From positions 1 through 64,000 of the forward strand of contig JADLGN010000019.1 of the NCBI GenBank assembly GCA_020849295.1: a stretch of DNA of 64,000 nt, read 5' to 3'. Every line of letters starts with the position of its first letter. Position 1 is the stretch's first letter. The notes beneath the pieces were generated by a model, which was not told the DNA's origin, did not search any database, and saw only the letters and a list, made by a program, of their open reading frames with translations. The DNA is from Bacteroidia bacterium (lineage in GTDB: Bacteria > Bacteroidota > Bacteroidia > NS11-12g > UBA9320). Shown piece by piece: positions 35,207 through 53,708 of this stretch. The position numbers and the translations under genes were made by a program.

Positions 35207-35764
35207 ATGGAAATTAAATCAATTCTCACAATTTCACTCACACTTTTTGCAGTAATAGATATTTTAGGAAGTATTCCTGTTGTTATGGCTTTGCGTGAAA
35301 AACTTGGCGAAATAGAATCAGGAAAAGCTACAATAGCTGCCGGTGTGTTAATGATACTTTTCTTATTTATAGGTCAGCAGTTTTTAGAAATACTCGGAGT
35401 TGACATTAATTCTTTTGCTCTTGCAGGTTCAATAGTAATTTTTATAATTGCTCTCGAAATGGTATTAGGTCAAAATTTTTTTAAAGATAGTGCCGACGAA
35501 GATAAAGGCAGTATTGTTCCGATTGCTTTTCCTATTGTAGCAGGTGCCGGTACACTTACTACTATTATTTCATTAACTTCAGAATATACCAAAACTGAAG
35601 TTCTTATTGGAATTCTTATTAATCTTATTGCTGTTTATATTGTCCTTCGCTCTATAAAATTTATTGCCCGAAAACTTGGAAGAAGAGGTCAAACAGTATT
35701 AAGAAAGTTTTTCGGCTTGGTACTTTTGTCTATTGCTATTAGATTGTTTAAATCTAATATTTAA
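35207..35764 (+). CDS. MarC family integral membrane protein
   Basis: The 185-residue protein has about six TM helices and the MarC pattern: FAVIDILGSIPV near the N-terminus, GQQFLEILGVDINSFALAGSIVIFIIALEM in the middle (quoted by its first and last parts), PIAFPIVAGAGTLTTIISL, and a C-terminal LRKFFGLVLLSIAIRLF. The family has no established transport substrate despite its name; it is not a proven antibiotic-resistance protein. It converges with the amidohydrolase gene, the two stops sharing one TTAA (35761-35764). Confidence 0.88.
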   Translation: MEIKSILTISLTLFAVIDILGSIPVVMALREKLGEIESGKATIAAGVLMILFLFIGQQFLEILGVDINSFALAGSIVIFIIALEMVLGQNFFKDSADEDKGSIVPIAFPIVAGAGTLTTIISLTSEYTKTEVLIGILINLIAVYIVLRSIKFIARKLGRRGQTVLRKFFGLVLLSIAIRLFKSNI

Positions 35765-37371
35765 AATTTCACACCACCTATATAAGTTTCGATAACTTTT
35801 ATCTCAATAAGTTCATCGATTGTAACTGTGTAGGGGTTTTTATTTAACACAATAAAATCAGCATACTTTCCATTTTGTAATGTACCTGTAAGATCTTCCC
35901 AAAAATTTGCTTTTGCAGCCCAAAGGCTCATACCTGCAAAGGTTTCTGTACTACTAAGTTTTTCATTTAAGTTAAATCCTTCTGTTGGTTTTTTATTAGC
36001 ATTTTGCCTGAAACGTGCCGCTCTAATTGTGTTAATAGGATTTACCTCTTCTACAGGGAAATCAGTCCCTAAGGCTATATAGTCGGCATTTTTCAACAAT
36101 GTTTTATAAATATATGCTTCATTCATTCTGTTTTTACAAATTCTATTTTGTGCCCACCCCATATCACTTGTGGCATGTGTAGGCTGTACTGATGGAATTA
36201 TTGAAAATTTTTTAAAATTTTTCAAATCAATTGCTTCTACAACTTGTGCATGTTCAATCCTCCATCGGCGATTGTTTTTATTTTTAAGATATTTTGAATA
36301 TGCTTTTAATACCAAAGCATTTGCCGAGTCTCCAATTGAGTGTGTACACACCTGCAATCCTTTGTTGTAATATTTTTTTAATAAACTGTCAAGTCTTACA
36401 CCATCAATCAAACTCAGTCCATAATTTTTTTCATCATCACAATATGGTTTTTTAAGCAACGCTCCACGCGAACCAAGGGCTCCATCTGAATATATTTTAA
36501 CACTTTTCCATTGTACATTTTCATTTTTAAATGGAGTAAAATCCGTAATATTTTCGTCAGGATTACACATAAGATTAAATCTCATATTTAGCACGTTTGC
36601 TTTACATAGGCTGTCTATCAAAAAAATATCTGCTATTGGTAAGCCGGCATCACATACCTGAGTTATTCCATATTTTACACATTCATTTTGTGCTTTCAAA
36701 AGCCATTTTACTTTTTGTTTTCTGTCTGGCAAAGGCAATTTGTTTTCAATTAATTCTGTAGCATTATCAATCAATACGCCTGTAAGCTTTCCGTTTTCCG
36801 AAACTATTTTACCTCCTTCAATTTTCGAACTTATATTGATACCTGCATAATCAAGTAATTTTGAATTTGCAATTAACGCATGTCCATCTACTCTCTTTAG
36901 TAATATATATTTATTTGGGAAAAGTCTGTCAAGTATTTCATTTGAAGGAAAATTTTTATTTTGCCAATCATTTTGGTCCCAGCCTCTCCCTTGAATCCAT
37001 GTTATGTCAGGATTTTTTTTTACAAATTCTTCAACTCTCTTTACTGTTTCATCCCAAGAACTGCAACCCCACAGATTTACTTCTTCCATTGACTTACCTA
37101 AACCGAGAAAATGACAATGTGCATCAATAAAACCAGGTAAAACAATTTTACCTGCCATATCTTTTTTGTTGGCTGAAGTATAGTTTTTTTCCCATGTTTT
37201 ATCATTAAAAAGACCTATTACTTTGCCTTTGTCTACAAGCATTGTACGGTATTCGGGGGTAAAAGGTCCTGTAATAATTTTTGCATTAAATATTATTAAA
37301 TCTACTTCCTTTTTTTTGTTTTGACAAAAGACCAATAAGGGCAAAAACAACAATGAAACTAATAATTTCAT
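35761..37371 (-). CDS. Secreted amidohydrolase, YtcJ-like
   Basis: The start was placed at ATG 37371 (MKLLVSLLFLPLLVFCQ, signal peptide); an upstream start at 37401 would add ten residues. Metal-binding motif H-x-H in GFIDAHCHFLG, then WIQGRGWDQNDW, a DGALGSRGALL motif, H in CTHSIGDSAN, HAQVV and D in ALGTDFPVEEV. This is the Amidohydro_3 layout of YtcJ-like enzymes. Substrates of this subfamily are mostly unknown (N-acyl or cyclic amides). A C-terminal KYADFIVLNKNPY is typical. The export signal suggests periplasmic location. Confidence 0.85.
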   Translation of the reverse strand: MKLLVSLLFLPLLVFCQNKKKEVDLIIFNAKIITGPFTPEYRTMLVDKGKVIGLFNDKTWEKNYTSANKKDMAGKIVLPGFIDAHCHFLGLGKSMEEVNLWGCSSWDETVKRVEEFVKKNPDITWIQGRGWDQNDWQNKNFPSNEILDRLFPNKYILLKRVDGHALIANSKLLDYAGINISSKIEGGKIVSENGKLTGVLIDNATELIENKLPLPDRKQKVKWLLKAQNECVKYGITQVCDAGLPIADIFLIDSLCKANVLNMRFNLMCNPDENITDFTPFKNENVQWKSVKIYSDGALGSRGALLKKPYCDDEKNYGLSLIDGVRLDSLLKKYYNKGLQVCTHSIGDSANALVLKAYSKYLKNKNNRRWRIEHAQVVEAIDLKNFKKFSIIPSVQPTHATSDMGWAQNRICKNRMNEAYIYKTLLKNADYIALGTDFPVEEVNPINTIRAARFRQNANKKPTEGFNLNEKLSSTETFAGMSLWAAKANFWEDLTGTLQNGKYADFIVLNKNPYTVTIDELIEIKVIETYIGGVKF

Positions 37372-37383: not shown

Positions 37384-37470
37384 TAGGATTTTAAAAATCA
37401 AATGATATTTACAAATAGTTTTTTAATGATATTGATTTTTTATTAAATAACTAATTATTTTTGTAAGTAG

Positions 37471-37634
37471 AAAACAAGATAAGGGAACACCGTATAACAA
37501 CCGGCGACAGTGCCCGCTGCTGTATATTCCACATAGAGTTTTGCTACCTTTTTTTACTATTGCCACTGTTCAGAGAAAATTAAAGAATGGGAAGGCTGCA
37601 AATACCGGAATGAGTCAGAAAACCTGCTTGTTTT
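37471..37634 (+). ncRNA. Cobalamin (vitamin B12) riboswitch
   Basis: The closing stem P1 is AAAACAAG (37471-37478) paired with CTTGTTTT (37627-37634). Inside are the conserved pieces in order: AAGGGAACACCG (~37480), CAGTGCCCGCTGCTGTA (37508-37524), GGGAAGGCTGCAAATACC, and the B12 box GAGTCAGAAAACCTGC (37612-37627). It lies 51 bases before a TonB-receptor gene. Binding of adenosylcobalamin is expected to switch off the downstream btuB-like operon. The region 37384-37470 upstream is AT-rich with no gene seen. Confidence 0.93.
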
Positions 37635-37656
37635 TAAAAAAATAAATAAAACTAAT

Positions 37657-37676
37657 TGCTTTCGGGAACAAAAGCA
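37657..37676 (+). promoter_or_regulatory. Hairpin before btuB, possible riboswitch expression platform
   Basis: TGCTTT (37657-37662) pairs with AAAGCA (37671-37676) around the loop CGGGAACA, ending nine bases before the ATG at 37686. In many cobalamin riboswitches such a hairpin forms a loop-loop contact with the aptamer and hides the ribosome-binding region. The loop CGGG is complementary to CCCG at 37513-37516 within the aptamer. Inference from structure by eye only. Confidence 0.4.
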
Positions 37677-37685
37677 GAAGTAACA

Positions 37686-39608
37686 ATGAAAAAAGTATTA
37701 ATTTTTATTATATCATTTTTTATTTTTTCAATTGCAAATTCGCAAATTGATACTTTTTTGTATAAAAATTTAGATGAAATAACTATCTCTGAAAGCCGAA
37801 TTCAATTATTAACACAAGGAAACAGAAAGGATGCAATTGACAGCATTTTCAATATATATTCACTTAGCTTACCAATATCGCAATTATTAAATACAACAGG
37901 CAGTATAAATATACGAAGCTACGGACCCGGGAGCCTTGCTACTTCTACACTTAGAGGAGGGAACTCTTATCAAACTTCAATTTCATGGAATGGAATTTCT
38001 ATTAATAATCCTGTAAACGGATTGTGTGATTTTAATTTAATTCCAGCCTTTATGTTTGATGAAATATTTATTAGTCCCGGTTTGCCTTCTTCTATTCAAG
38101 GAAGTGGAAGTATTGGCGGTGGTATTAATTTGCAGAACAATACAAATTTTAAGAAGAAAAACGATTTAGATTTATTTCAGTCTTTTGGTAGTTTTTCACA
38201 ATATACGGCGGGTTTAAAAACCGATTTAAGTTATAAAAAAATAAAGAATACTCTTAAGCTGTTTTATTCAACAAGTAAAAATAATTATTCATTTACAAAT
38301 TTTAATGAGCAAGGATTTCCTAAGCAAAATATGACAAATGCAAATACTACGCTTTTCTCTGTATTAAATGAATTAAAAATTTTTTCATCTAAAAGAGGAA
38401 TTTTTAAAGTGTTATATTGGGGAACTGCTGCCCAAAGGCAAATCCCGCCAACTATACTAATGAGCAGTTCTGTGGCTACACAATCTGATAACTTAAATAA
38501 AGTTTCATCAGGATGGGAAAAATCAATTAATAAAGTGAAATTCAAAGTGTATTTAATTTTGCAAAAAGATTATTTAAAATATAAAGATTTAGAACAAAAT
38601 ATAAATTCTATTACAAATAATAATACAATTACAAGTGATATTGAGATAAGATACAGACAATGTAATATATCAAACTGGAACTTTGGATTTTCAGGTTCCA
38701 GAACTGTAGCAAATGTTGAAAGCAAAACTATAACTGACACAATAATGTATAATAATTCAAGTAGAAATCAAATTTCACTTTGGATTAGCAATATTTTGAA
38801 ATTTAAAAAAATAAATACCGAAATTTCTACAGTTTTAAGACAAGAATATGTTGATGATAAATTTATTCCTTTAGTGCCTTCGGTGGGATATAAAACATCT
38901 ATTAATAAACATTTTTATATTTTTGGACAATGGAGCAGAGTGTACAGAATACCTACCCTAAATGACCTATACTGGAACCCTGGTGGAAATAAAAACTTAA
39001 AATCAGAAAGTGGGATTCAAGCAGAACAAAGCATGGGATACAATCATAAATCCAAAAACATTGAAATAAACCCTGTAATTACAGTTTTTAGTAAGGTAAT
39101 TAACAATCAAATTCAATGGCAGCCTGTAAGCTCACAAATTTGGAAACCTTTTAATATTTCAAAAGTATATAGTCGTGGCATTGAATTGAGAAATAATTTT
39201 AAATTCAAAATTTGTAATAATTTGTGGAGTAGTTCGGGAATAAACTTAAACCTGATAAAATCAGAAAATATAAATAAATCAGACAATAATTTTGGGAATC
39301 AAATAATTTATGTTCCATATTACAACTCATCAGTTTTTGTTGGATTTATTTTAAAAAAAATCACTTTTAATTTAATAAACAACTCTGTCGGCTCAAGATA
39401 TACAAGCACAGATAACACTGAATTTCTTAAAGGGTACAGCTTGTTTAATTTGTTTTTTAATAGAACATTCATTAATAAAAAAATAAAAATTGACTTGTAT
39501 TTCAAAGCAAACAATATTTTCAATACAAGTTATCAAGAAGTTGCATGGCGACCAATGCCCGGAAGAAATTATGAAGTGGGTATAAATTTAAATTTTAAAA
39601 AAAAGTAA
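37686..39608 (+). CDS. btuB: TonB-dependent vitamin B12 receptor, BtuB-like
   Basis: The start was set at ATG 37686 (MKKVLIFIISFFIFSIANSQ, signal peptide). A TonB-box-like segment (LDEITISES) is followed by a plug domain (INIRSYGPGSLATSTLRGGN, SISWNGISINNPVNG, PGLPSSIQGSGSIGGGI) and ~500 residues of beta-barrel with amphipathic strands and the usual C-terminal end (NNIFNTSYQEVAWRPMPGRNYEVGINLNF). At ~640 residues it is a compact receptor without the carboxypeptidase-like domain of SusC proteins. The cobalamin riboswitch directly upstream and a BtuG-like gene downstream support B12 as the ligand. Confidence 0.9.
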   Translation: MKKVLIFIISFFIFSIANSQIDTFLYKNLDEITISESRIQLLTQGNRKDAIDSIFNIYSLSLPISQLLNTTGSINIRSYGPGSLATSTLRGGNSYQTSISWNGISINNPVNGLCDFNLIPAFMFDEIFISPGLPSSIQGSGSIGGGINLQNNTNFKKKNDLDLFQSFGSFSQYTAGLKTDLSYKKIKNTLKLFYSTSKNNYSFTNFNEQGFPKQNMTNANTTLFSVLNELKIFSSKRGIFKVLYWGTAAQRQIPPTILMSSSVATQSDNLNKVSSGWEKSINKVKFKVYLILQKDYLKYKDLEQNINSITNNNTITSDIEIRYRQCNISNWNFGFSGSRTVANVESKTITDTIMYNNSSRNQISLWISNILKFKKINTEISTVLRQEYVDDKFIPLVPSVGYKTSINKHFYIFGQWSRVYRIPTLNDLYWNPGGNKNLKSESGIQAEQSMGYNHKSKNIEINPVITVFSKVINNQIQWQPVSSQIWKPFNISKVYSRGIELRNNFKFKICNNLWSSSGINLNLIKSENINKSDNNFGNQIIYVPYYNSSVFVGFILKKITFNLINNSVGSRYTSTDNTEFLKGYSLFNLFFNRTFINKKIKIDLYFKANNIFNTSYQEVAWRPMPGRNYEVGINLNFKKK

Positions 39609-39609
39609 T

Positions 39610-40593
39610 ATGTTAAATAAAATATTCTATACAATTTTATTATTGTCATTATCAATAGCTGCAAACAGCCAGTATAATCCTTCTGCCGGCAAAGCAGGTA
39701 GTTCTGCAATTCACAAAGATTCATCAATATTTGTTGCATGGGCAAATCAATGCAAAATAATAAGAGGCTGGAAAAATATTGCTTTAAAAGATTCAGGTTT
39801 TACTACAATTGGCGATAGTATTTCTGCCCTTGGCAAAGCAGGTGAAAATGGTACAGTAAGTCTTGGTGATAGCGGTATTGCTATTTTTACTTTTAATAAT
39901 CCAATAGAAAATGATAAGGGTTGGGATTTTGCAATTTTTGAAAATGCTTTTGATGATAATTATCTTGAACTTGCTTTTGTAGAGATAAGCAGCGATGGAA
40001 AACGATTTTTCAGATTTCCATGCCATTCGCTTTCTGATACAATTAATCAAACAAGCTCTTTTGGCTATACAAATCCTGAAAAAATCAATAATCTTGCAGG
40101 TAAATACAGGGCAGGATTTGGTACTCCTTTTGACATTAGTGAAATTCCTGATTATAAAGATTTAGATAAAAGCAATATAAAATATATAAAAATTATAGAT
40201 GTAATTGGTAGCTTAAATCCAAAATTTGCAAATTATGATACTGCTTTGAGAAAAATAAACGACCCCTACCCTACCATGTTTCCATCAGGAGGATTTGACC
40301 TTGATGCAATTGGTATTATAAACCAAAAGTTTTTAAATACAGCCAGAGTGTTTTCAAATGATTTCAAAATAAATTCACCAAATCCTATTTATAATAGCCA
40401 ACTTTTATCTATCAATTTTTTTAATAATGATAAAAAACAAATAAAAATAATTGACTCAAAAGGCAGTCTATATAAAGAATTTAATACTTATGACAAAGAG
40501 TTTAAACTAAAATCAGAAGAGTTGCCTTATGGATTTTTTATTTTAATAATTAATGGAAAAACAACTCAACATTATAAGGGAATTAAATTATGA
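39610..40593 (+). CDS. T9SS-sorted protein of the B12 operon, function unassigned
   Basis: Signal peptide (TILLLSLSIAANSQ). Residues ~20-240 form one globular domain with motifs AGKAGSSAIHKDSSIFVAWA, LGDSGIAIFTFNNPIENDKG, WDFAIFENAFDD, YLELAFVEISSDGKRFFRFP and PSGGFDLDAIGII, a lectin-like or PEP-CTERM-type cell-surface domain seen in Bacteroidota. The last ~75 residues (INSPNPIYNSQ to GIKL) are a type A T9SS sorting domain. Genes of this kind recur beside B12 receptors, so binding or capture of cobalamin at the cell surface is suspected, not shown. It starts 1 bp after btuB and overlaps btuG by ATGA. Confidence 0.7.
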   Translation: MLNKIFYTILLLSLSIAANSQYNPSAGKAGSSAIHKDSSIFVAWANQCKIIRGWKNIALKDSGFTTIGDSISALGKAGENGTVSLGDSGIAIFTFNNPIENDKGWDFAIFENAFDDNYLELAFVEISSDGKRFFRFPCHSLSDTINQTSSFGYTNPEKINNLAGKYRAGFGTPFDISEIPDYKDLDKSNIKYIKIIDVIGSLNPKFANYDTALRKINDPYPTMFPSGGFDLDAIGIINQKFLNTARVFSNDFKINSPNPIYNSQLLSINFFNNDKKQIKIIDSKGSLYKEFNTYDKEFKLKSEELPYGFFILIINGKTTQHYKGIKL

Positions 40594-41633
40594 GTAATAA
40601 AATTTTATTTTTAGCAATTTGTTTTTTTATTCTTACAATTTTTTCATGCAATGATGGAGACAAAACAGGAAAACCCTCTGATGTAAACAAAGATGAAGGT
40701 TTCTTTGTAATTAATGAAGGTACTTTTGGCTTAGGAAATGCTTCTCTTTCTTACATAAACATTTTAGATAGTAGTAAAAACTCAGATATTGATTTATTTT
40801 TCAATGCTAATAATCGCAAAGTTGGCGATGTTTTTCAAAGTATGAATTTTATCAATAATAACTTATGGCTTGTATTGAACAACTCAGGTAAAATAGAAGT
40901 TATAAGCTCAACAAATTACAAATCAACTGCTACAATCAAAGGATTAAAATCTCCAAGATATACATTAGAGGTGATGCCAGACAAAGTATATATTTCTGAT
41001 TTATATTCTAATTGCATAAGCATAATTAACTCTAACAATTTTACAAAAACAGGTGAAATAAAATGTAATGGCTGGACAGAACAAATGCTACTAGCAGACC
41101 AAAAAGTATGGGTAACTAATTATAACAGCAATTTTATATTTATTATCAATCCTATAACAGACAAAATAAGCGATAGTCTTGAAGTAGCATGGGGAGGCTC
41201 ATCAATAGTATATGATAAAAATGGTAAAATATGGGTTTTATGTTCTGGAGATTTTATTAAAAATAAAAAAGGTGGTTTATTTTGCTTTGATTCAAAATCT
41301 TTAAAAAAAGAAAAGGAAATTTTATTTGATAAAACAGATTTCAACCCTTTTAAACTTATACAGAACTCAAAAAATGATAGTTTGTATTTTGTATTTAAAG
41401 GAATATATAAATTCTCAAAAAATATAAATATCTTGCCTGATAAACCTTTTATAAAAGAAAACATTGGTTCGTCATTTTATGGAATTACCACTAATAAAAG
41501 TAATGGGAAAATATATGTAGCAGATGCCAAAGATTTCAACAGCAAAGGAAAAATACACGAATATTCTGCATCCGGCGATTATATTAAATCTTATCGGGCA
41601 GGGATAATTCCTTCGGATTTTTTATGGTGGTAA
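40590..41633 (+). CDS. btuG: BtuG-like surface lipoprotein (beta-propeller, DUF5074 type)
   Basis: Lipoprotein signal with lipobox IFSC (C20). The 327-residue mature part is a YncE/DUF5074-like propeller with repeated units of the type NNLWLVLNNSGKIEVISSTN, DKVYISDLYSNCISIINSNN, QKVWVTNYNSNFIFIINPIT and GKIWVLCSGDF, starting with the family motif FFVINEGTFGLGNASLSYI. In Bacteroides, BtuG is a B12-capturing lipoprotein that docks on BtuB. Position in the riboswitch-controlled operon with btuB makes the same role very likely here. Confidence 0.82.
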   Translation: MSNKILFLAICFFILTIFSCNDGDKTGKPSDVNKDEGFFVINEGTFGLGNASLSYINILDSSKNSDIDLFFNANNRKVGDVFQSMNFINNNLWLVLNNSGKIEVISSTNYKSTATIKGLKSPRYTLEVMPDKVYISDLYSNCISIINSNNFTKTGEIKCNGWTEQMLLADQKVWVTNYNSNFIFIINPITDKISDSLEVAWGGSSIVYDKNGKIWVLCSGDFIKNKKGGLFCFDSKSLKKEKEILFDKTDFNPFKLIQNSKNDSLYFVFKGIYKFSKNINILPDKPFIKENIGSSFYGITTNKSNGKIYVADAKDFNSKGKIHEYSASGDYIKSYRAGIIPSDFLWW

Positions 41634-41634
41634 A

Positions 41635-44600
41635 TTATCTTTCTATGATAAATTTTTGAACCAAAACAACATTGTCGGTTTTAATAGTGAGATAATAAAT
41701 TCCATTACCAAGGTTTCCAATATTAAGTTTTTCTTTAACTTCACCGTATTTACAATTAATAGTTTTAAAAACTAATTCTTTCCCTAAAACATCATTAACA
41801 ATAATCTCGGCTGTTTTCATATCTTTCTCAGCAAAAAATGAATAAATCAAAAAATCTTTTGCAGGTACTGGAGATACAGAAATTTTACGATTAATATTTT
41901 TTTCTGAAATTGAAGCAGTATTTTTCTTAGTTTTAAAAGACGAAAAAGTTTCGGCATTGCTGCAAATTGGTTTAAGTTTCCAGTCGTATTCTGTCAATTG
42001 GATTAATCCTGTTATATTTAAAAAAGTGTCATAAGTGTTTATTGATTTTTCCCAAACTGAAGAAACTGTTTTCTTCAACTCAATATTATATTCGTCTGCT
42101 TCTACAATTTTATCCCAGTATAGAGTTACACTATTGGAAGTGAGATTTCTGTTTTGAAGTCCTGAGCCCATTGAACAACTTTCTGTAGTAAAAGAACCAA
42201 GAGCATAGGTTCCGCTATCGTATTTGCAAATTGGTTTTATTCTTACATCATATTCGGTAAATCCTTTTAAACCAGTAATTGAAATATTGTTTAAACTTGT
42301 GTTACCAAGACTAATCCATGTAGAAGAACTTGATTTTTTATATTCAACTAAATAGTTTAAAGCACCAATATTATCCCATGTTATTAATGCAAAATTTATA
42401 CTTGTGCTATCGGCTACTATTGCATTAATATTTTTACAATTTTCAGGTGTTACAAATGAATCTATAGTAAAATCACTCCATGAAGGGCAATTTGACCTTA
42501 CACGCCATAAGTAAGATGTGCCTGCTGTAAGATTTTGCAACAAAACCAAAGTATCGCTTATGTTTGAGATATTTTTCCAGTTTAAAGAATCAGATGATTT
42601 ATATTCTAAAGTATAATTTACTGCAGTATTAGATTTGTTCCATACTAATTCTACTTTGTTTAAACCATAAATAATACTTTTTAATCCTACAGGTTTTTCA
42701 CAGGGTACTTTGCTTATTAAATCTGTTTCCCACAAACCTCTGCCATAAGTAGCTACTCTTAGTTTGGCAGATTTTTCCTGGATTTCAAGTTCATTAATTG
42801 CTACAAGCGGCAATCCTGTTCCGTACTGTGTCCAATTGTTTGTAATTTTATTTCGGTGATATACTCCTACATTCATTCCTACATATACATCCTCAGAATC
42901 GGTTTCATCAACTACAACTGTTCTTGCTGATAGCGAAGGTAAACCCGAAGAAATGTTTGTAAAATTTTTTCCTGCATCAGTTGAAACAAAAACTCTGTTT
43001 GAACTGCTATTACATGTAATCCATAATTTTTTAGGATTTAGCTTACTAATATAAATACTTGTAATTTCAGAACTTAAAATAGTGGAATCCCATGTCGTAC
43101 CACCGTCTTCAGTTCTATATAATTTGGAATAAACTGAGCTATAAATATATTTTGAATTTTTTGCAACAGCAAGTGTATTCATTTTACTTTTTACAAATGG
43201 TGAAAGATTTTTCCAAGTACTTCCAAAATTAGTTGACTTCCAAACTCCAACCCAACCACCCCATACGGTATCATGAGTATTATGGCTCATTGCTAATGGC
43301 GTAACCCAATTGCCACTTGATGGGCTTGATAGATTTGAATATGTTTTTCCTGAATTTGTAGTTTTATAAATAGATCCGTTTTGACTTGTTCCTATTACAA
43401 AAGCTGAATTTATAGGGCTAATAACACAATCCATTCCGTCAGCACCAAGCCAATCTATCCATTTTCCATCTGCTTGACGATACGATGTACCGTTATCTTG
43501 AGCACCACCTGATACAACTTCGGGGTCTGTTTTAGAGCATGAAATTTTATAAAATTGCCTTATGCCCATTCCACTTGTAAGATCTGTCCAATCATCGCCA
43601 TTGTTTGTGCTTTTATATATACCACCATCACTTGTTGAATAAATTGTGCTATTTATCCATTCGAGTGAATGTACATCAGCATGATTATATCCAACAGTAT
43701 TTGGATATGACCAAACAGTTTCTGCTTTAAAAGTAAAACCACCGTCAGTACTTTTCCAGCATATAATACCGGCTATATGTACCTCGTCAACGTCTTTTGG
43801 ATTTACGCAAATTGCCATATCATAAGAAGCTTGCCCAGTAGTTCCTTTTCCATCAGGTGTGTATCCAAAAAAATTAGTACCTGCCGAAGCACTTCCTGTA
43901 ATTGATACAACATAGTTTTTACCAGTATCTGTTGAAATATACATTCTGCCAAAAATACTTCCACTGGCTTGTGCAGCATATACTATTGCCGGATTATCAG
44001 GGGAAACACCAAGCAGAGTTCTGCCTGTTCCTTTCATTCCATTCGAGTTATCAAGATTTGTCCATGATAAACCATTATTGTTTGATCGCATTATTGAAAC
44101 TGAACCTGAACCTGAAGCATACATGATATTAGCATTTGACGGATTAAATTCAATATCTTCCATACTAGATGTTGAACTTACTTTTGTCCAGCTTGAACCT
44201 GCATTTACTGACCGCCAAATCCCTCCTGAACCTGTAGCAAATACAATATTTGAATTACTTGGATGAACTACAATTTTTTTAACAGAACCAGGTCCGCTTC
44301 CTGTATTGCTCCATGTTTTTCCTGCATCTGCTGATTTTATTACACCTGAAGGTGCAGCATATATTGTTTTTGAATTTGAGGGGTCAATACATAAGTTGAA
44401 AACATTCATCCATCCGCTGTTTGAATAATCAATCAGTGGTTCCCAAGTACTCCCGCTGTTTACGCTTTTCCAAATTCCACCGCCTGGCGAACTTACATAT
44501 ATTACTGTTGTATCTGAAGGATGTATAGCTACTGATGTAATTCTTCCTACTCCGGGATTCCATCCGCTTGTTGGGCTTTTTGACACAGGTCCCATTTCTT

Positions 44601-44922
44601 TCCATACATTTGATGCTTTATACTTCTTTTGATTTTTGGCAAATCTGTTGTATTCGTAATATTCTTTGTCTGCATTAATGTAATTTCCTTTGTCATCAAT
44701 ATGAAATTTGCGTTCGTAGAGCCATCTCTGATACTGCTTGTAGCCTGTACCTCTTCCGGTACCTACTTCATTAAAATATTTTTCTGCAATTTTTTCAACT
44801 TCTTCAAGTTTTAAATTGCTGTTATCCATTATTTCAAAAATGTTTACTTGGCTATATGAATTTAAAAAGAATAAAGTAAAAAAGCAGGCTACAAGTAGTT
44901 TTTTTAGTAATAAAATTCTCAT
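41635..44922 (-). CDS. Surface beta-propeller (sortilin/BNR-like) with three fibronectin III domains and T9SS domain
   Basis: Signal peptide (LLVACFFTLFFLNSYSQ). Residues ~110-720 carry many BNR/Asp-box-like repeats of the form (S)..G.(T/S)W (GGIWKSVNSGSTWEPL, GIYKSTNNGDDWTDL, LYRTEDGGTTWDS), as in VPS10/sortilin-type and exo-alpha-sialidase-like propellers. Then three FN3 domains (from CEKPVGLKSI, CKNINAIVAD and CSMGSGLQNR), each ~95 residues with W.....Y.(V/I/L)E(Y/L)K, and a type A T9SS sorting domain (SVSPVPAKDF to FIIER). Such proteins are often annotated as glycosyl hydrolases, but no catalytic residues can be argued; binding is as likely. Confidence 0.85.
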   Translation of the reverse strand: MRILLLKKLLVACFFTLFFLNSYSQVNIFEIMDNSNLKLEEVEKIAEKYFNEVGTGRGTGYKQYQRWLYERKFHIDDKGNYINADKEYYEYNRFAKNQKKYKASNVWKEMGPVSKSPTSGWNPGVGRITSVAIHPSDTTVIYVSSPGGGIWKSVNSGSTWEPLIDYSNSGWMNVFNLCIDPSNSKTIYAAPSGVIKSADAGKTWSNTGSGPGSVKKIVVHPSNSNIVFATGSGGIWRSVNAGSSWTKVSSTSSMEDIEFNPSNANIMYASGSGSVSIMRSNNNGLSWTNLDNSNGMKGTGRTLLGVSPDNPAIVYAAQASGSIFGRMYISTDTGKNYVVSITGSASAGTNFFGYTPDGKGTTGQASYDMAICVNPKDVDEVHIAGIICWKSTDGGFTFKAETVWSYPNTVGYNHADVHSLEWINSTIYSTSDGGIYKSTNNGDDWTDLTSGMGIRQFYKISCSKTDPEVVSGGAQDNGTSYRQADGKWIDWLGADGMDCVISPINSAFVIGTSQNGSIYKTTNSGKTYSNLSSPSSGNWVTPLAMSHNTHDTVWGGWVGVWKSTNFGSTWKNLSPFVKSKMNTLAVAKNSKYIYSSVYSKLYRTEDGGTTWDSTILSSEITSIYISKLNPKKLWITCNSSSNRVFVSTDAGKNFTNISSGLPSLSARTVVVDETDSEDVYVGMNVGVYHRNKITNNWTQYGTGLPLVAINELEIQEKSAKLRVATYGRGLWETDLISKVPCEKPVGLKSIIYGLNKVELVWNKSNTAVNYTLEYKSSDSLNWKNISNISDTLVLLQNLTAGTSYLWRVRSNCPSWSDFTIDSFVTPENCKNINAIVADSTSINFALITWDNIGALNYLVEYKKSSSSTWISLGNTSLNNISITGLKGFTEYDVRIKPICKYDSGTYALGSFTTESCSMGSGLQNRNLTSNSVTLYWDKIVEADEYNIELKKTVSSVWEKSINTYDTFLNITGLIQLTEYDWKLKPICSNAETFSSFKTKKNTASISEKNINRKISVSPVPAKDFLIYSFFAEKDMKTAEIIVNDVLGKELVFKTINCKYGEVKEKLNIGNLGNGIYYLTIKTDNVVLVQKFIIER

Positions 44923-45098: not shown

Positions 45099-48000
45099 TT
45101 ATCTCAATAAATAAACTTTTCTGTTTTCCTCATATCTGTCATTATACATCCTTAGTATATATGCACCATTGTATAGTGCATCACTAAATCTGAATGTATG
45201 TGTATTTGTTCCAATTACATCAAAATACATTCGCAATTTTCCTTTGTTGTCATACAATTCAAAATGTATAGGCAAATCAAGTCCGAATGCTTCAAGTTCT
45301 GAAACAGTTATCATATCTACAGTTGGGTTAGGATACAATTTAATCAATTCAACCACAGGTGCTTCAAGAACTACTATAGTATCTTTTTGTAAACAGCCGT
45401 TAGCATCTGTAACTGTTATGTAATAAGTACCAACTCCTACATTGTGAATTGTATCATTATTTTGAGATGTCATACTCCATGCGTAAGAATATGGTAGTGT
45501 TCCACCTGTTGCAGTTACCCATACATGTCCATTATTAATTAAAGGAATTGCTGTAGTTCCATCTGTGGTAGTAAGAAGTTTTGTAGGTTCTGTTATGTCT
45601 CCACTATCTTTTATTACACACATATTCTTATCAGTAATAGTTACTACATAATGACCAGCAGGCATATTTGCAATATCTTCTGAAGTTTGAGAACTGCTCC
45701 AATTGTAAGTATATGGTGTTGTTCCGCCTGTTACTGTTAAATTAATAGAGCCATCTGACGAACCTTTACATTTTGCATTTGCTACTATTACAGAAGTACT
45801 TAGTGGTGCTGAAGGTTGTGTTACTATTATTGAGTCTTTCAACAAGCAACCACTTGAGTCTGTTACTGTAACTTTGTATTTACCTTGAATTAAATTAGTG
45901 ATACTTTGTGAACTTGCTCCATTAGACCAAGAGTATGTATAAGGCAATGTGCCACCAGCAACATTTAATGTTACAGAACCATCATTACCTCCATAACAGT
46001 TTACTGCCATAGCACTTATAGTGCTTGAAAGTGGTGCCACAGGTTGTTTAATATATATTGAATCTTTAATAATACATAGATTTTTATCTGTAACTAATAC
46101 ATAATATTTTCCTGCAACTAAAGCCCCAATATCTTCTGTATTGCTACCATTTGACCAAGAATAAATATATGGTGTTGTTCCTCCTGTAACTGTCAAATCA
46201 ACTGAACCTGTTGCATCGCCAAAGCATTTTACATAAACTTTTGTAATATTTGTAGCAAGTGGTGCCAGTGGCTGTGTAACAATTGCGGTATCTTTTAATG
46301 TACAATTATTTTTATCTATAATTGTTACATAATAAGTTCCGACAGTTAAGTTATTTATATCCTGATTTGTGCTGCTATTTGACCAGGTATATGTGTAAGG
46401 AGTTGTACCTCCAGTTACTGTTAAATCAACTGCACCATCATTGCCAGCATAACAATTTACTGCCGAAATTACAGTTGAAGAAGCTAAAGGTGCTGATGGC
46501 TGTGAAATATAAGCCGAATCGTAAAGCACACAATTATGACTGTCAGTTATTTTCACTTTATACCAACCATAAGTTTTACCGCTTATATCTTGAGAAATAT
46601 CTCCACTACTCCAGCTATATGTATATGGTGGAACACCTCCTGACGGAGTTATATTTATTCCACCATCACTACCTGCGTAACAATTCACATCACTTACCAC
46701 ATGTGTAGTAACTAACAATGTAGGTTGTGTTACAATTCCTGCATCGTTTATTGTACAACCATTTTTATCAGTAACTGTAACTGAGTAAGACCCTGCAGTT
46801 AAATTGCTGATATCTTCTGTAGTTGCACTATTACTCCAATTGTATGTATATGGCGTTATACCTCCAGAAACAGTTAAATTAATTGCTCCATCATTACCGC
46901 CAAAACAATTAACATGTGTAACTACATTTGAAATAACAAGTTTTGTAGGTTCTTTTATAACTGAAGAGTCATTAATTGTACAACCGTTAGCATCTGTTAC
47001 TGTTACAAAATAGTAACCATCTATCAAACTGTTCAAATCCTGATTAGTTGATTGACCTGAAGGAACACTTCCTCCGCCTGTAGCAGTCCATGAATATGAA
47101 TATGGAGTTGTACCGCCTGTAACTGTCAAATCTATAGAGCCAGTTGCATTTCCGTTACAATATACATCTACTCTTGTTTTAGAAGTAAACAATGGTGCAG
47201 AAGGCTGATTGATTGTAATGTTGTTAGTTGAAGTACAATTGTTGGCATCTGTAATTGTTACAGAATACGTTCCAGCAACAAGCCCTGTTAAATCCTGATT
47301 GGTTGACTGACCTGATGGTACACTTCCTCCGCCGCTTGCTGTCCATGAATAAGTATATGCTGTTGTTCCGCCTGTAACAGTTAAATCAATTGAACCTGTT
47401 GAATTTCCATAACATTTTACATCAACTTTTGTATATGAATTTGACAATGCTGCAGATGGCTGGCTTATAGTTATATTTTTGTTATCTGTACATGCATTTG
47501 CATCAGTAATTGTAACTGAATATGTACCGGCTACAAGTCCCGTCAAATCCTGATTTGTTGATTGACCTGACGGCACACTTCCTCCTCCGCTTGCTGTCCA
47601 TGAATATGAATATGATGTTGTTCCGCCTGTAACTGTTAAATCAATTGAACCGCTTGCATCTCCGTAGCATTTAACATCAACTTTTGTATATGAACTTGAA
47701 AGTGCAGCAGAAGGTTGTGTTATTGTAACACTATTTGTTGTTGTACAATTATTAGCATCTGTTACAGTAACATTATATGTTCCGGCAACCAGTCCTGTCA
47801 AATCCTGATTGGTTGATTGACCTGAAGGCACGCTGCCACCTCCACTTGCTGTCCAAGAATATGAATAAGCTGTAGTACCTCCGGTAACTGTTAAATCTAT
47901 TGAACCACTTGCATTTCCATAACATTTTACATCAACTTTTGTATATGTACTTGACAAAACTGCTGAAGGCTGTGAAATAACAACAACTTGAGTTTTTGTA

Positions 48001-51000
48001 CAGCTATTTGCATCAGTAATTGTTACTGTATAAGTACCTGAAATTAATCCTGTCAAATCCTGGTTTGTTGACTGTCCTGATGGTACACTTCCACCGCCAC
48101 TTGCTGTCCATGAATAAGAATAGGATGGTGTACCGCCGGTAACTGTTAAGTCAATTGAAGCAGTAGAATTTCCAAAACATTTTACATCAATTTTGGTATA
48201 GCTCGGAGTAATAGGGGCTGATGGTTGTGTAATTGTTGCACTATTTGTTGTTGTGCAATTATTAGCATCAGTAATTGTTACATTATATGTCCCGGCTACA
48301 AGTCCTGTTAAATCCTGATTAGTTGACTGGCCTGATGGCACACTTCCTCCGCCACTTGCTGTCCATGAATATGTGTATGCTGTCGTTCCACCGGTAACTG
48401 TTAAATCAATTGAGCCTGTAGCATCACCATAACACTTCACATTAACTTGTGTTTTTGTACTTGCCAACGGTGCTGCAGGTTTTGTAATTGTTGCACTATT
48501 GTTTGTTGTACAATTGTTAGCATCAGTAACTGTAACATTGTATGTTCCTGCCACAAGTCCTGTTAAATCTTGATTTGTTGATTGACCAGATGGCACGCTG
48601 CCACCTCCACTTGCTGTCCAAGAATATGAATAAGCTGTAGTACCACCGGTAACTGTTAAATCAATTGAACCTGTAGCATTTCCATAACATTTTACATCAA
48701 CCTGCGTTTTTGTACTTGCCAACGGTGCTGCCGGTTGTGTAATTGTAAAGCTATTATTTTTCACACAGTTATTTGCATCTGTAATTGTTACATTATATGT
48801 ACCGGCTATTAGTCCTGTTAAATCCTGATTAGTTGACTGGCCTGATGGCACACTTCCTCCGCCACTTGCTGTCCACAAATAAGTATATGATGGAGTTCCG
48901 CCGGTAGCTGTTAAATCAATTGAACCGCTTGCGTTTCCATAGCATTTTACGTTTACTTGCGTTCCTGTACTTGATAATAAAGTAGGTTGACTAATTGTTG
49001 CACTATTTGTTGTTGTGCAATTATTAGCATCAGTAATTGTTACATTATATGTCCCGGCTACAAGTCCTGTTAAATCCTGATTAGTTGATTGTCCTGAAGG
49101 TACACTTCCTCCGCCACTTGCTGTCCATGAATATGTGTATGCTGTCGTTCCTCCGGTAACTGCTAAATCAATTGAGCCTGTAGCATCACCATAGCACTTC
49201 ACATTAACTTGTGTTTTTGTACTTGCCAACGGTGCTGCTGGTTGTGTAATTGTAGCACTATTGTTTGTTGTACAATTATTAGCATCAGTAACTGTAACAT
49301 TGTATGTTCCTGCCACCAGTCCTGTCAAATCTTGATTAGTTGATTGTCCTGAAGGTACACTTCCTCCGCCACTTGCTGTCCATAAATATGTGTAACCTGA
49401 AGTACCTCCGGTAACTGTTAAATCTATTGAACCTGTAGCATCTCCATAACATTTTACATCAACCTGTGTTTTTGTACTTGCCAACGGTGCTGCCGGTTGT
49501 GTAATTGTTCCGGTGTCTTTAATTATACAGTTATTAAAATCAGTAACTGTTAAGTAATATGTACTTGCAGGGATGTTAGTTAAATCTTCTGTTGTTGCAG
49601 AATTGCTCCAGCTATAGCTGTAAGGTGTTACACCACCAGTTATAGTAACATCAAAAGCTCCTGTACTTGCTCCGTGGCATTTTACATGGGTTAAAGTATG
49701 AGATTTTTGAAGTTTTGGTGGTTGTGTGATTTCAGATGTGTCGTAAGCGAAACAACCATGGTCATCAATAACCTGTAAAGAGTATTTGCCGATTGATAAA
49801 CCAGTTAAATCTTGTGTAGTTGCAGAATTACTCCATACATAAGTATATGGAGTTGTGCCACCGGTAACAGTAATATCTACTGCCCCATCACTGCCTCCAA
49901 AACATTTGACATTTGAAATAACATGACTTATAACTAACTTGGCTGGTTGAGTTATTATAGTTGTATCTTTTGTTTTACAACCTTTTGTATCTGTAATAAT
50001 CACACTATAATTTCCTGCTGCAATAGCAGATAAATCCTGAGTAGTTTCTGCGTTACTCCAAATATATGAATATGGAGCAGTACCTGAAACAACTGTTAAA
50101 TCAATACTTCCATCATAGTTGCCGAAACACTGAGGATTTACTGATGACTTAGATGAGATTACGGGTAATAAATTTTTACTTATTTTTATTTCATCTGTAG
50201 ATTTACAACCTGTAGAAGCTGTAACTTTAACCCAGTATGTACCCCATGTATTTGCTGTTTTTGTTTGGTTTGTAGTGCTGTCATTCCATTTATATGAAGA
50301 ATATCCGCTTCCCGCATTTAGTACTAAGCTAAAATTAACATCTTCACAAAACGCAGTATCTTTACCTAAGTTGGTAACAGGACCCTGTTTTAATTCAAAT
50401 ACATCAGAAGTGTCAAATACAACATCAGTAGATGTTAATGATCTTAAGAAGTATTTTTTAATTCCGTTAATATCTCCCGGAATTACCCACTTATATAAAG
50501 TGTCGCCACCACTTAAATTAGTAGCAAAAGTTTTGTAAGTAGCTCCTGAATCGGCAGAATATTGAAGTTTGATAGAATTAAAAAATGAACGATGCCATCT
50601 TATACGTAATGTATCGCCAGTACATAAACTGGTATTAATTGGTATAGGTTTAAAAAATTCATTTGATGCTATACTGAATGAAATATCGGGTGTTGATTTA
50701 TCACCTTCTTTATTGTCAGTGTTATCAAATGCAATTGAATATGCTTTATAACTTGAGCCAAAATTTCCTCTGAATTTATATACTGTATCTTCTATACCAT
50801 TTGCAACTATATTATATGGACCATCATTTTCTGAAACATAAATATTAAAATAACCAACACCACTACCCAATGAGTCATCTTTTGCTTTTATTTTCATATC
50901 CACAACATTAGAGTCAATAACAGAAGGTACACTGCTGATAAAACTTGTAGGTGCAACAGCATCAATTATATTATGAATTTTAGGAGTAGGTACCGGCGTA

Positions 51001-53708
51001 TTATCATCAAATACTATTATTGCTTTAGCTCTAATGCTATCTAAAGTTTTTGCTGTAGATTTGGGTTTTATTGTATAATTTACATAACCTTCTCCCTTGT
51101 GTGTAATTGTATCATTAATTGCTAAATATCCTTTATTTCCATCAAGTGGAGGCACTCCTGTTGCAGGGTCAATACTTTCAAATACCCAAAATGCTTGACG
51201 GGAATTTAAGTCCAAACCTGCAGTAACGTCTAAATAAATCCCCAAAGAATCCTCTAAATCAAGACGATTAGAATATGTTGTAGAATTATCAGGTACGTTA
51301 AAACTGTATTTGTAAAAACCAAAGCTCGATAGTTTGAATGAAGTTATATCAACATTTGAATCTAAATTATGAGTAATTGTAACTTTTTGTGCGGGACCTG
51401 TAGCAAACTTGGGGTCATTTTCATATCTAATTTTGTATGGTAATGTTGCATTTACAGAAACCCATTTTTTGTCACCGTAGCTTGGAGGACCGATTATATC
51501 ATTAGGGTCATAAGAGCATGTTATTGGTATATACATGAGCCATGCTGTTGCTTCTGCTGTACAGTTATTCTTATCTATTACTGTTGCAGTATATGTTCTG
51601 AAAAATCCACTTCCGCCACTGCAAACCACTTCTTTGATACCATTGGGCCAATTATAAGTGTAAGGTTGCGTTCCTCCATTTGCAGATGCAGTTAATGTTA
51701 CTGTAAAAGATCTCTGACATGCACCAAAATAAACACCACTTCCCGATATATTTAATTTTAATTTTTCAGGAGCTACAAGATTGGTGTCGGCTACAATTTC
51801 ACATTTTGCGGCTGTATCTTTTATTACTACTATATAGTTTCCAGAGTCGAGTCCAACCACATCCTGACTTCTGGCAAATACCGCTCTTGTTGTATCTCCT
51901 TTGTGCCAGTAATACTCAGGCTCTTTCCCTTTTCCTTTCTTTTTAATTATTAAATCTATTTCTCCGTCTTTTGAATCAATACATTTAGGATTTTTAACTT
52001 CAAATTTTACTTCAAGGGTATCGCAGCATTTTTCACCAACATTTACGGCGTACCATGCATTACAAACCTGTTTCCACTCTTCTGATTTGTATCCGAATAT
52101 TTTTTCTGCTGCTAATAAAGTTGCTTTTCTCGCTGCCTTGTAATCAGAATGTGCAGTCATAAATTGAGATAATGCACGATATACTATTTTTTCGCTTTTT
52201 GCTCTGGTAATTCCAGTAACATTATATTGTTTATTTTTATCATTTGTTCCGTTTCCTCCTGCTGTTAACAAGTAAAACCAGAAATTTCCAACTCCCGAAT
52301 TAGTGTGTACACCACATTCATCATTATTATTATTTGGAACGCAACCTGTCTGACCTACCCAATGATCACCATCATAACAATTTGGTTGTTTCGTCCAATT
52401 ATGGGCACTTGTATTTTTAGGTGTTTTCATATTTCTTAGTGCATCTCCGTTTGTCCCGGGAGTAAAACATTGTTCACCTATTTGCCAGTTACCACCTCCT
52501 GTAGCGTAATCTTCAATGCAATATCCAAAAATATCGGCAAAAGATTCGTTTAATGCTCCAGATTCGTTTCTATATGCTAAGTTAGCTGTTTTTTCAACTA
52601 CTGCATGAGAAAATTCATGTCCTGTAATATCTAATGAAACTAAATCAGAAAATAAAACACCTCCACCTGTTCCGTAATACATTGCAGTACCATCCCAATA
52701 AGCATTATCGTATCCTGTTACACCGTTTCTTGCTTCACCGGTAGGTAAAAACGCATAAAAGTTTTTTATTAGCGTACCATTATTGTCAAAGGATTTTCTA
52801 TTGTGCTTTGTATTATAATAGTCGTATGTTTTTCCTATACCGTAATGTACATCTACACCGGCTTTTTGCCACTGAGAAGTAAAATTATTATCTGCATCAT
52901 TTACTAATGGATAACTGGCATGTGTTGTATCATTCCAGCAATAAAATGTTTTAATATTTCTTATTGAGTCTTGTAGATAAAATTGAGCACCTATTTTTTT
53001 GGTATTAATATTTACGCCATTACCAGAATAAAGCGAATTACCTGTACCATTTGCCCCATGCATAGCATCATGATAATATTCTACTGAACCGTTTTGAGAA
53101 TTTATGTATAAAAATACTCTTGATGGTTTTATTGTTAATATTTCTACTTCATAACACAAGACAACTTTGGCGTTTTCAATTCCAAATTTTGAAGCATATT
53201 TTAATTTAATTTTAGGTTGAACTTTAGGTTCATCATTAAATTGAAAATAGTCATTTGAAGTAATACCAAGCGTTGTATTTGCTATTTCAATAGCTTTATT
53301 TTCAGTAATTACAGGAGATATAATCAATTCAGGATCTCTTAATGTACCTATTATATTTTCAATCTGTCCATTATTTTTTCTTACAATTATAATATCTCCA
53401 CCATCTACAGGATACCCATTAATGGTTTGCATTACTTTTGTTACTGAATATCCATCAGAGTTTTCAGACGACATGGTTTTAAAAGTAAAATTATTTGAAA
53501 CATTATAAATTTCTGCTAATATTTTAGGCAGGTTTTCAATTGTTGTAGAACTCCACGAAGTATGTGGCTTAAAACTAAACAATAGATTTGAATTGTTGTA
53601 CTCTGCGTCAATTATTTGCTCTTTGCTGTTTTGAGCATATATGTTTGTCACATAAAGTGACAATACTATTGAAAGTATTTTTACTGTATTTAATATTAAT
53701 TTTTTCAT
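45099..53708 (-). CDS. Giant M4 metalloprotease-adhesin with about 20 SprB repeats and T9SS domain
   Basis: 2869 residues. Signal peptide (ILSIVLSLYVTNIYAQ), FTP propeptide (~30-220), M4 peptidase with H364-E-F-S-H368, Glu in ALNESFADIFG and late His in CGVHTNSGVGNFW. Then a first SprB-like unit (~590-680), a DUF7619-type module beginning CSYDPNDIIGPP, an Ig-like part, and from about residue 1180 some 19 SprB-type repeats (V.CYG...GSIDLTVTGGT..Y.Y.W.......DL..L..G.Y.VTVTD...C), the adhesin unit known from the gliding protein SprB. The end (LYPNPTVDMIT to KVYLLR) is a type A T9SS domain. It lies 8 bp after the neighbouring giant gene and shares its orientation, so both are probably one transcript ending at 45042. 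The combination suggests a cell-surface protease that binds its target. Confidence 0.92.
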   Translation of the reverse strand: MKKLILNTVKILSIVLSLYVTNIYAQNSKEQIIDAEYNNSNLLFSFKPHTSWSSTTIENLPKILAEIYNVSNNFTFKTMSSENSDGYSVTKVMQTINGYPVDGGDIIIVRKNNGQIENIIGTLRDPELIISPVITENKAIEIANTTLGITSNDYFQFNDEPKVQPKIKLKYASKFGIENAKVVLCYEVEILTIKPSRVFLYINSQNGSVEYYHDAMHGANGTGNSLYSGNGVNINTKKIGAQFYLQDSIRNIKTFYCWNDTTHASYPLVNDADNNFTSQWQKAGVDVHYGIGKTYDYYNTKHNRKSFDNNGTLIKNFYAFLPTGEARNGVTGYDNAYWDGTAMYYGTGGGVLFSDLVSLDITGHEFSHAVVEKTANLAYRNESGALNESFADIFGYCIEDYATGGGNWQIGEQCFTPGTNGDALRNMKTPKNTSAHNWTKQPNCYDGDHWVGQTGCVPNNNNDECGVHTNSGVGNFWFYLLTAGGNGTNDKNKQYNVTGITRAKSEKIVYRALSQFMTAHSDYKAARKATLLAAEKIFGYKSEEWKQVCNAWYAVNVGEKCCDTLEVKFEVKNPKCIDSKDGEIDLIIKKKGKGKEPEYYWHKGDTTRAVFARSQDVVGLDSGNYIVVIKDTAAKCEIVADTNLVAPEKLKLNISGSGVYFGACQRSFTVTLTASANGGTQPYTYNWPNGIKEVVCSGGSGFFRTYTATVIDKNNCTAEATAWLMYIPITCSYDPNDIIGPPSYGDKKWVSVNATLPYKIRYENDPKFATGPAQKVTITHNLDSNVDITSFKLSSFGFYKYSFNVPDNSTTYSNRLDLEDSLGIYLDVTAGLDLNSRQAFWVFESIDPATGVPPLDGNKGYLAINDTITHKGEGYVNYTIKPKSTAKTLDSIRAKAIIVFDDNTPVPTPKIHNIIDAVAPTSFISSVPSVIDSNVVDMKIKAKDDSLGSGVGYFNIYVSENDGPYNIVANGIEDTVYKFRGNFGSSYKAYSIAFDNTDNKEGDKSTPDISFSIASNEFFKPIPINTSLCTGDTLRIRWHRSFFNSIKLQYSADSGATYKTFATNLSGGDTLYKWVIPGDINGIKKYFLRSLTSTDVVFDTSDVFELKQGPVTNLGKDTAFCEDVNFSLVLNAGSGYSSYKWNDSTTNQTKTANTWGTYWVKVTASTGCKSTDEIKISKNLLPVISSKSSVNPQCFGNYDGSIDLTVVSGTAPYSYIWSNAETTQDLSAIAAGNYSVIITDTKGCKTKDTTIITQPAKLVISHVISNVKCFGGSDGAVDITVTGGTTPYTYVWSNSATTQDLTGLSIGKYSLQVIDDHGCFAYDTSEITQPPKLQKSHTLTHVKCHGASTGAFDVTITGGVTPYSYSWSNSATTEDLTNIPASTYYLTVTDFNNCIIKDTGTITQPAAPLASTKTQVDVKCYGDATGSIDLTVTGGTSGYTYLWTASGGGSVPSGQSTNQDLTGLVAGTYNVTVTDANNCTTNNSATITQPAAPLASTKTQVNVKCYGDATGSIDLAVTGGTTAYTYSWTASGGGSVPSGQSTNQDLTGLVAGTYNVTITDANNCTTTNSATISQPTLLSSTGTQVNVKCYGNASGSIDLTATGGTPSYTYLWTASGGGSVPSGQSTNQDLTGLIAGTYNVTITDANNCVKNNSFTITQPAAPLASTKTQVDVKCYGNATGSIDLTVTGGTTAYSYSWTASGGGSVPSGQSTNQDLTGLVAGTYNVTVTDANNCTTNNSATITKPAAPLASTKTQVNVKCYGDATGSIDLTVTGGTTAYTYSWTASGGGSVPSGQSTNQDLTGLVAGTYNVTITDANNCTTTNSATITQPSAPITPSYTKIDVKCFGNSTASIDLTVTGGTPSYSYSWTASGGGSVPSGQSTNQDLTGLISGTYTVTITDANSCTKTQVVVISQPSAVLSSTYTKVDVKCYGNASGSIDLTVTGGTTAYSYSWTASGGGSVPSGQSTNQDLTGLVAGTYNVTVTDANNCTTTNSVTITQPSAALSSSYTKVDVKCYGDASGSIDLTVTGGTTSYSYSWTASGGGSVPSGQSTNQDLTGLVAGTYSVTITDANACTDNKNITISQPSAALSNSYTKVDVKCYGNSTGSIDLTVTGGTTAYTYSWTASGGGSVPSGQSTNQDLTGLVAGTYSVTITDANNCTSTNNITINQPSAPLFTSKTRVDVYCNGNATGSIDLTVTGGTTPYSYSWTATGGGSVPSGQSTNQDLNSLIDGYYFVTVTDANGCTINDSSVIKEPTKLVISNVVTHVNCFGGNDGAINLTVSGGITPYTYNWSNSATTEDISNLTAGSYSVTVTDKNGCTINDAGIVTQPTLLVTTHVVSDVNCYAGSDGGINITPSGGVPPYTYSWSSGDISQDISGKTYGWYKVKITDSHNCVLYDSAYISQPSAPLASSTVISAVNCYAGNDGAVDLTVTGGTTPYTYTWSNSSTNQDINNLTVGTYYVTIIDKNNCTLKDTAIVTQPLAPLATNITKVYVKCFGDATGSVDLTVTGGTTPYIYSWSNGSNTEDIGALVAGKYYVLVTDKNLCIIKDSIYIKQPVAPLSSTISAMAVNCYGGNDGSVTLNVAGGTLPYTYSWSNGASSQSITNLIQGKYKVTVTDSSGCLLKDSIIVTQPSAPLSTSVIVANAKCKGSSDGSINLTVTGGTTPYTYNWSSSQTSEDIANMPAGHYVVTITDKNMCVIKDSGDITEPTKLLTTTDGTTAIPLINNGHVWVTATGGTLPYSYAWSMTSQNNDTIHNVGVGTYYITVTDANGCLQKDTIVVLEAPVVELIKLYPNPTVDMITVSELEAFGLDLPIHFELYDNKGKLRMYFDVIGTNTHTFRFSDALYNGAYILRMYNDRYEENRKVYLLR
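46938..49490 (-). repeat. Ten near-identical ~255-bp tandem units coding SprB repeats
   Basis: Inside the giant protease gene ten consecutive SprB repeats share an extra WTASGGGSVPSGQSTNQDL segment that the flanking repeats lack. Unit spacing, taken from the recurring CTTCCTCCGCC-type sequence (near 47068, 47324, 47578, 47830, 48087, 48343, 48598, 48855, 49105 and 49363), is about 250-258 bp. Neighbouring units are nearly the same in protein sequence while differing at synonymous sites. This indicates recent amplification or gene conversion. Confidence 0.88.

Follow-up and report, generated by a model that had tools for sequence, protein, structure and literature searches.

The cobalamin operon and its genomic setting

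The window, that is, the whole 64,000-nucleotide stretch of DNA analysed here, carries three genes on the plus strand behind a cobalamin riboswitch, namely btuB, a middle gene for a protein of 327 amino acids, and btuG. The features of this unit are as follows:

37435..37645, plus strand: cobalamin riboswitch (RF00174), 62.3 bits against a cut-off of 31.5, recovered again in a whole-genome search
37686..39608, plus strand: btuB, TonB-dependent cobalamin receptor (PF00593 and PF07715)
39610..40593, plus strand: middle gene, predicted T9SS-exported BtuH-like protein of 327 amino acids (matches the BtuH domain by profile, structure and contact residues)
40590..41633, plus strand: btuG, cobalamin-binding beta-propeller lipoprotein (DUF5074 match)

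The riboswitch begins slightly 5′ of the start given in the original prediction, and btuB starts at the ATG at 37686, with the TTG start of the open reading frame list (37656) lying upstream. The best solved relatives of the BtuB protein are Bacteroides BtuB proteins (8p97_A, 3.9e-49; 8bmx_C, 2.2e-46), and that of the BtuG protein, in which a lipobox (IFSC) was recognized by inspection, is BtuG 8p97_B (6.6e-55). A gap of 1 bp (39609) separates btuB from the middle gene, which in turn overlaps btuG by the ATGA at 40590-40593. The tight packing of riboswitch, btuB-like gene, middle gene and btuG-like gene that was originally described is confirmed by these coordinates and by the RF00174, Pfam and PDB matches. 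Because the genes on both sides (35761-37371 and 41635-44922) are encoded on the minus strand, the riboswitch and the three genes are set apart as a single unit, in which riboswitch, BtuB and BtuG stand together as a riboswitch-controlled BtuBG operon. Promoter-like matches within the operon were no more numerous than in shuffled sequences. Elsewhere in the window, positions 45099-53708 encode a 2869-residue protein that shows, by inspection, a metalloprotease-like HExxH start and many near-identical internal repeats.

Architecture and predicted export of the middle protein

The following parts could be distinguished in the middle protein:

39610..39669, plus strand: signal peptide, residues 1-20, without a lipobox cysteine (sequence; helix 2-16 in the AlphaFold model)
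39718..40338, plus strand: BtuH-like globular domain, residues 37-243 (VIA-align Z 12.6 to 7biz over model residues 42-238, Z 11.3 to 8blw_B)
39937..39951, plus strand: FENAF motif, residues 110-114 (HMM alignment to 7biz; N112 and F114 correspond to BtuH2 Asn399 and Phe401)
40348..40590, plus strand: C-terminal sorting domain for the T9SS, residues 247-327 (structural match to the C-terminal domains, CTDs, of T9SS cargo)

The signal peptide is of the Sec type. The lipoprotein anchor of the described BtuH lipoproteins was found neither in the window protein nor in its relatives, 73 of which were searched for a lipobox, with chance-like matches inside the hydrophobic core in only 5. The globular domain has no Pfam or NCBIfam model, and the sole match to these collections is the T9SS-like tail, which does not reach the curated cut-offs (PF18962, 19.3 bits against 27; TIGR04183, 17.2 against 23), so that the assignment to the T9SS needs support beyond the protein's own score. 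The fold of the tail matches the CTDs of T9SS cargo (8glk_D, Z 9.2; 8qb1_A, Z 9.3), its profile matches the NucA CTD at 1.7e-7, and PF18962 is matched at E up to 0.01 by 46 of the 73 relatives. The source genome also encodes the T9SS core, including SprA (2385 bits), PorU (1179), PorV (456) and PorP. The sorting domain, together with the translocon and sortase of the host, points to a type A cargo of the T9SS whose export is predicted, and the protein may end either fixed to the cell surface or released, between which its sequence does not discriminate.

Relationship to the BtuH domain

In searches of PDB sequences, BtuH was reached by family profiles only; the middle protein as a single query returned nothing but chance matches to T4 lysozyme. 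Two family profiles built from the globular domain alone, with the tail excluded, were the informative queries against all PDB sequences. The first gave just two matches (8blw_B at 2e-6 and 7biz_A at 0.08), and the second gave 8blw_B at 3.2e-6 plus one unrelated chain at E 1. Chain B of 8blw, BtuG1 (BT1490) of Bacteroides thetaiotaomicron, ends in a BtuH domain, and the match falls within this closing domain. The other structure, 7biz, is the crystal structure of BtuH2 (BT1956) of the same species with B12. BtuH homologues were also gathered from other genomes using a BtuH2 fragment, and comparison of their alignment with the middle family, profile against profile, gave a probability of 94-96%. 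In the reverse search of the 1535 open reading frames of the collected loci, ranks 1-45 of the BtuH HMM were all occupied by family members, which is a ranking test rather than 45 independent proofs, since the members are mutually related; 89 of 90 members were found at E up to 10. These profiles indicate that the globular domain of the middle protein shares its ancestry with the cobalamin-binding domain of BtuH.

Structure prediction gave a similar picture. The AlphaFold model of the window protein (pLDDT 93.1) has 7biz as its best structural match (Z 12.6, rmsd 3.2, 157 residues), followed by 8blw_B (Z 11.3), with carbohydrate-binding modules of like general fold at Z 9.6 and below. A model from the other subfamily of the relatives (pLDDT 91), approximately 22% identical to the window protein, has the same two structures at the top, 7biz at Z 13.7 over 153 residues and 8blw_B at Z 13.1, and the next structure stands at Z 9.3. 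When Foldseek alone was used with a domain-only model of this second protein, 8blw_B came first. Beta-glucuronidases (TM approximately 0.2) had filled the first Foldseek list because the full model covered both the domain and the tail, and they were displaced by re-alignment and by the domain-only model. The modelled fold is thus that of the BtuH domain in both subfamilies. The earlier description of the domain as lectin-like holds for the fold, which is a galactose-binding-like beta-sandwich comparable to CBM32/F5-8C, but not for kinship, as its nearest relative binds B12.

In BtuH2, Asn399 contacts the phosphate of cobalamin and Phe401 its lower ligand (PMC8941943). The HMM alignment to 7biz pairs these residues with Asn112 and Phe114 of the middle protein, both of which are invariant in all 73 relatives. 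Chain residue numbers of 7biz were raised by 100, so that residue 299 is Asn399 and residue 301 is Phe401, and this numbering is consistent because Gln333 falls at chain residue 233 as expected. Fourteen positions, including F110, E111, N112 and F114, are invariant across the 73 sequences of the widest alignment. Support for the predicted binding mode covers half of the site, because the alignment is not confident in the regions that hold the corrin contacts of BtuH2 (His476, Tyr510, Trp511 and Trp577). BtuH proteins also have an EF-hand-like segment (DxNxNGxPDxDEW), which is absent from the middle family. Given the agreement of profiles, fold and contact residues, the middle gene can no longer be listed as an unassigned member of the operon, since its domain is BtuH-like.

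Distribution and genomic context in Bacteroidota

Relatives of the middle protein were detected in 82 of 108 genomes of the order, a few of them as tail-only matches, and they form two deep subfamilies spread over the phylum; a single-sequence search of genome contigs had found three loci only. Within the window's own family, the gene adjoins btuB and/or btuG in all 24 fetched loci, mostly with a riboswitch. In a phylum-wide draw, 18 of 26 domain-bearing fetched loci adjoin btuB or btuG, and three further loci have an operon of riboswitch, DUF6580 and BtuH-like gene, which gives 21 cobalamin loci spanning nine families in the numbering of the search tool. For a genome of several million bases that holds one or two loci of this kind, chance co-location is estimated at approximately 1% per gene. 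In a tree built from 90 members, changes of the B12-linked label are limited to a few, and the label is found in both deep subfamilies. These counts (24 of 24 and 21 of 26) bear out the recurrence of the gene in B12 loci under cobalamin riboswitches in other Bacteroidota that the original prediction had put forward as a check. The one locus from outside the phylum (L003) has no btuB nearby.

Several of the collected loci contain additional genes. In L131 (1368-3100), L132 (2291-4022) and L133 (6024-7751), the cobalamin riboswitch is followed by DUF6580 (PF20221) and then by the BtuH-like gene, and L144 and L163 also have a DUF6580-related gene, there adjoining both btuG and the BtuH-like gene; DUF6580 proteins are candidates for a component of an inner-membrane corrinoid transporter. 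Between btuB and the BtuH-like gene, L065 (4175-5362) and, as a 379-aa gene, L070 encode a further T9SS-tailed protein under the riboswitch. It matched no Pfam family, had no PDB relative beyond the tail, and is a candidate additional B12 binder. In L142 (4630-6291), the gene between btuG and the BtuH-like gene encodes a T9SS-tailed protein of beta-propeller repeats, which suggests that the T9SS may deliver a propeller too. Finally, in L145 (6986-8209) and L166 (6588-7817), the BtuH-like gene stands beside a beta-propeller protein of another family, without btuB or btuG of the usual type; L145 also has a TonB-dependent receptor, and these are possibly variant uptake loci.

A different type of companion is found in sister genera, where a T9SS-tailed DUF4465 (BtuJ-type) protein is encoded between btuB and the BtuH-like gene in the same operon. 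The source genome has a second B12-controlled unit with its other cobalamin riboswitch (contig C8, L169, 194-5531), in which IcmF, a B12-dependent mutase, is followed by the riboswitch and then by a DUF4465 protein in tandem repeat with a T9SS tail. Cobalamin binding by DUF4465 proteins is established (PMC13398666, PMC12751083), and other DUF families near them resemble, in general terms, accessory B12 proteins (PMC13398666). As DUF4465 and middle proteins are alike exported, share a beta-sandwich build and come from the same operons, the latter might be taken for a divergent BtuJ. This is highly improbable, and DUF4465 membership was rejected: PF14717 matched neither the window protein nor any of its 73 relatives, and the profile comparison of the middle family with operon DUF4465 proteins aligned mainly the T9SS tail. 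Moreover, true DUF4465 proteins co-occur with the BtuH-like gene in operons and under the other riboswitch of the source genome. The absence of BtuJ structures from the structural match lists has no bearing either way.

The second family of the order shows another context. It includes a clade of 28 members that have no btuB, btuG or riboswitch close by, 26 of which lie just downstream of ftcD. The ftcD-linked loci, which form one clade on the tree, are:

L043, L045-L048, L052, L054, L057, L058, L060-L064, L066-L069, L071-L078

Their neighbourhood (ychF, phosphoglucomutase, ftcD, BtuH-like gene and beta-lactamase-like gene) is conserved and without B12 genes. The genomes concerned have a riboswitch-btuB locus elsewhere, with DUF4465 and btuG in the fetched examples, and the equivalents of Asn112 and Phe114 are kept in the clade. 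Its members may serve constitutive B12 capture or may have changed their ligand.

Proposed role and alternative explanations

B12 is a contested nutrient, and its extracellular capture has been described for lipoproteins on the surface or vesicles of gut Bacteroides. We propose, with a probability of roughly 78%, that the middle protein is a T9SS-exported BtuH-like scavenger of cobamides that feeds BtuG and BtuB, binding being predicted from homology and modelling. This reading draws directly on the operon, the homology, the fold, the residue conservation, the recurrence and the T9SS machinery. The protein belongs to the same domain family as BtuH and is predicted very probably to have the same function; it is not a described BtuH lipoprotein as such, because its anchor differs. 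The original idea of a T9SS-exported putative cobalamin scavenger recurring under riboswitches is well supported by recurrence, BtuH homology and contact residues.

In the proposed mechanism, scarce cobalamin would permit expression of the operon, as judged from the riboswitch class. The middle protein would pass the inner membrane through Sec and the outer membrane through the T9SS, and PorU would remove its C-terminal domain, after which it would be surface-fixed or released; we infer this route from how the domains of the protein are arranged and from the SprA, PorU, PorV and PorP genes of the genome. A cobamide might then be captured with Asn112 and Phe114 serving the nucleotide loop and lower ligand, by homology to Asn399 and Phe401 of BtuH2, and be passed to BtuG, so that BtuB would be loaded and TonB-driven import could follow. 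Loading of BtuB by BtuG for TonB-driven import is known for BtuBG.

The ftcD-linked clade is the chief fact that the BtuH-like scavenger reading does not explain, and its detachment from B12 genes, together with the Z scores of 8-10 that CBM32-type folds reach against the models, would suit a protein that has kept the BtuH-like fold for another ligand, such as a surface glycan as in CBM32/F5-8C, and merely travels with the B12 operon. We regard this as unlikely, considering that BtuH domains score approximately 2 to 4 Z units above every CBM-like module in both subfamilies, that sequence profiles reach BtuH only, and that the nucleotide-loop contact residues of BtuH2 are invariant in the relatives; B12 linkage in both deep subfamilies also argues against a glycan binder. 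The tight packing of the gene between btuB and btuG could instead reflect an accessory of BtuB/BtuG that has lost its own cobamide binding and serves, for instance, in docking or lid opening, and such non-binding members are known from B. thetaiotaomicron B12 loci, where BtuK2 and BtuL do not bind cobalamin (PMC12751083). It is quite unlikely that the middle protein is one of them, as the middle family keeps the BtuH2 contact residues, and a fixed subunit of a complex would be a poorer fit to T9SS export than a protein that is detached or held by a glycolipid anchor.

If the middle protein is indeed a BtuH-like cobamide scavenger, the family would bring capture of the BtuH type, by a different delivery route, to those Bacteroidota that have a T9SS. 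A stand-alone, T9SS-exported BtuH-like protein was not described in the literature searched. The BtuH domain, reported to be without a close structural homologue, now has a large set of relatives spanning much of the phylum, and Asn112 and Phe114 are contact residues open to experiment.

Comparison with known systems

BtuJ/DUF4465 cobalamin binders (PDB 9FCT; PMC12751083, PMC13398666) are also exported, occur in btuB-btuG operons and have T9SS tails in this order, whereas the middle protein has a different domain without a PF14717 match. The galactose-binding-like CBM32/F5-8C modules share the beta-sandwich fold (Z 8 to 10), but this match is weaker than that to BtuH and lacks a sequence-profile link, and their ligands are carbohydrates. 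With T9SS type A cargo (Por_Secre_tail, PF18962/TIGR04183), the middle protein shares a signal peptide, a globular domain and a CTD with the fold of the NucA and mirolase CTDs, although the window tail scores below the curated cut-offs. The closest counterparts are BtuH2 (BT1956, 7biz) and the BtuH domain that BtuG1 carries (BT1490, 8blw_B). The middle protein resembles them in its fold (Z 11 to 14), in its sequence profile, in its setting in cobalamin loci and in the residues equivalent to Asn399 and Phe401, with 17-22% identity in structure alignments. The original contrast with lipoprotein B12 binders thus stands for the export route, there being no lipobox but a T9SS tail, and falls for domain ancestry, which leads to BtuH. 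Compared with BtuH2 and BtuG1, the middle protein lacks both the PKD or propeller partner domains and the EF-hand-like loop, its middle region is shorter, and it carries a T9SS sorting domain in place of the lipoprotein anchor.
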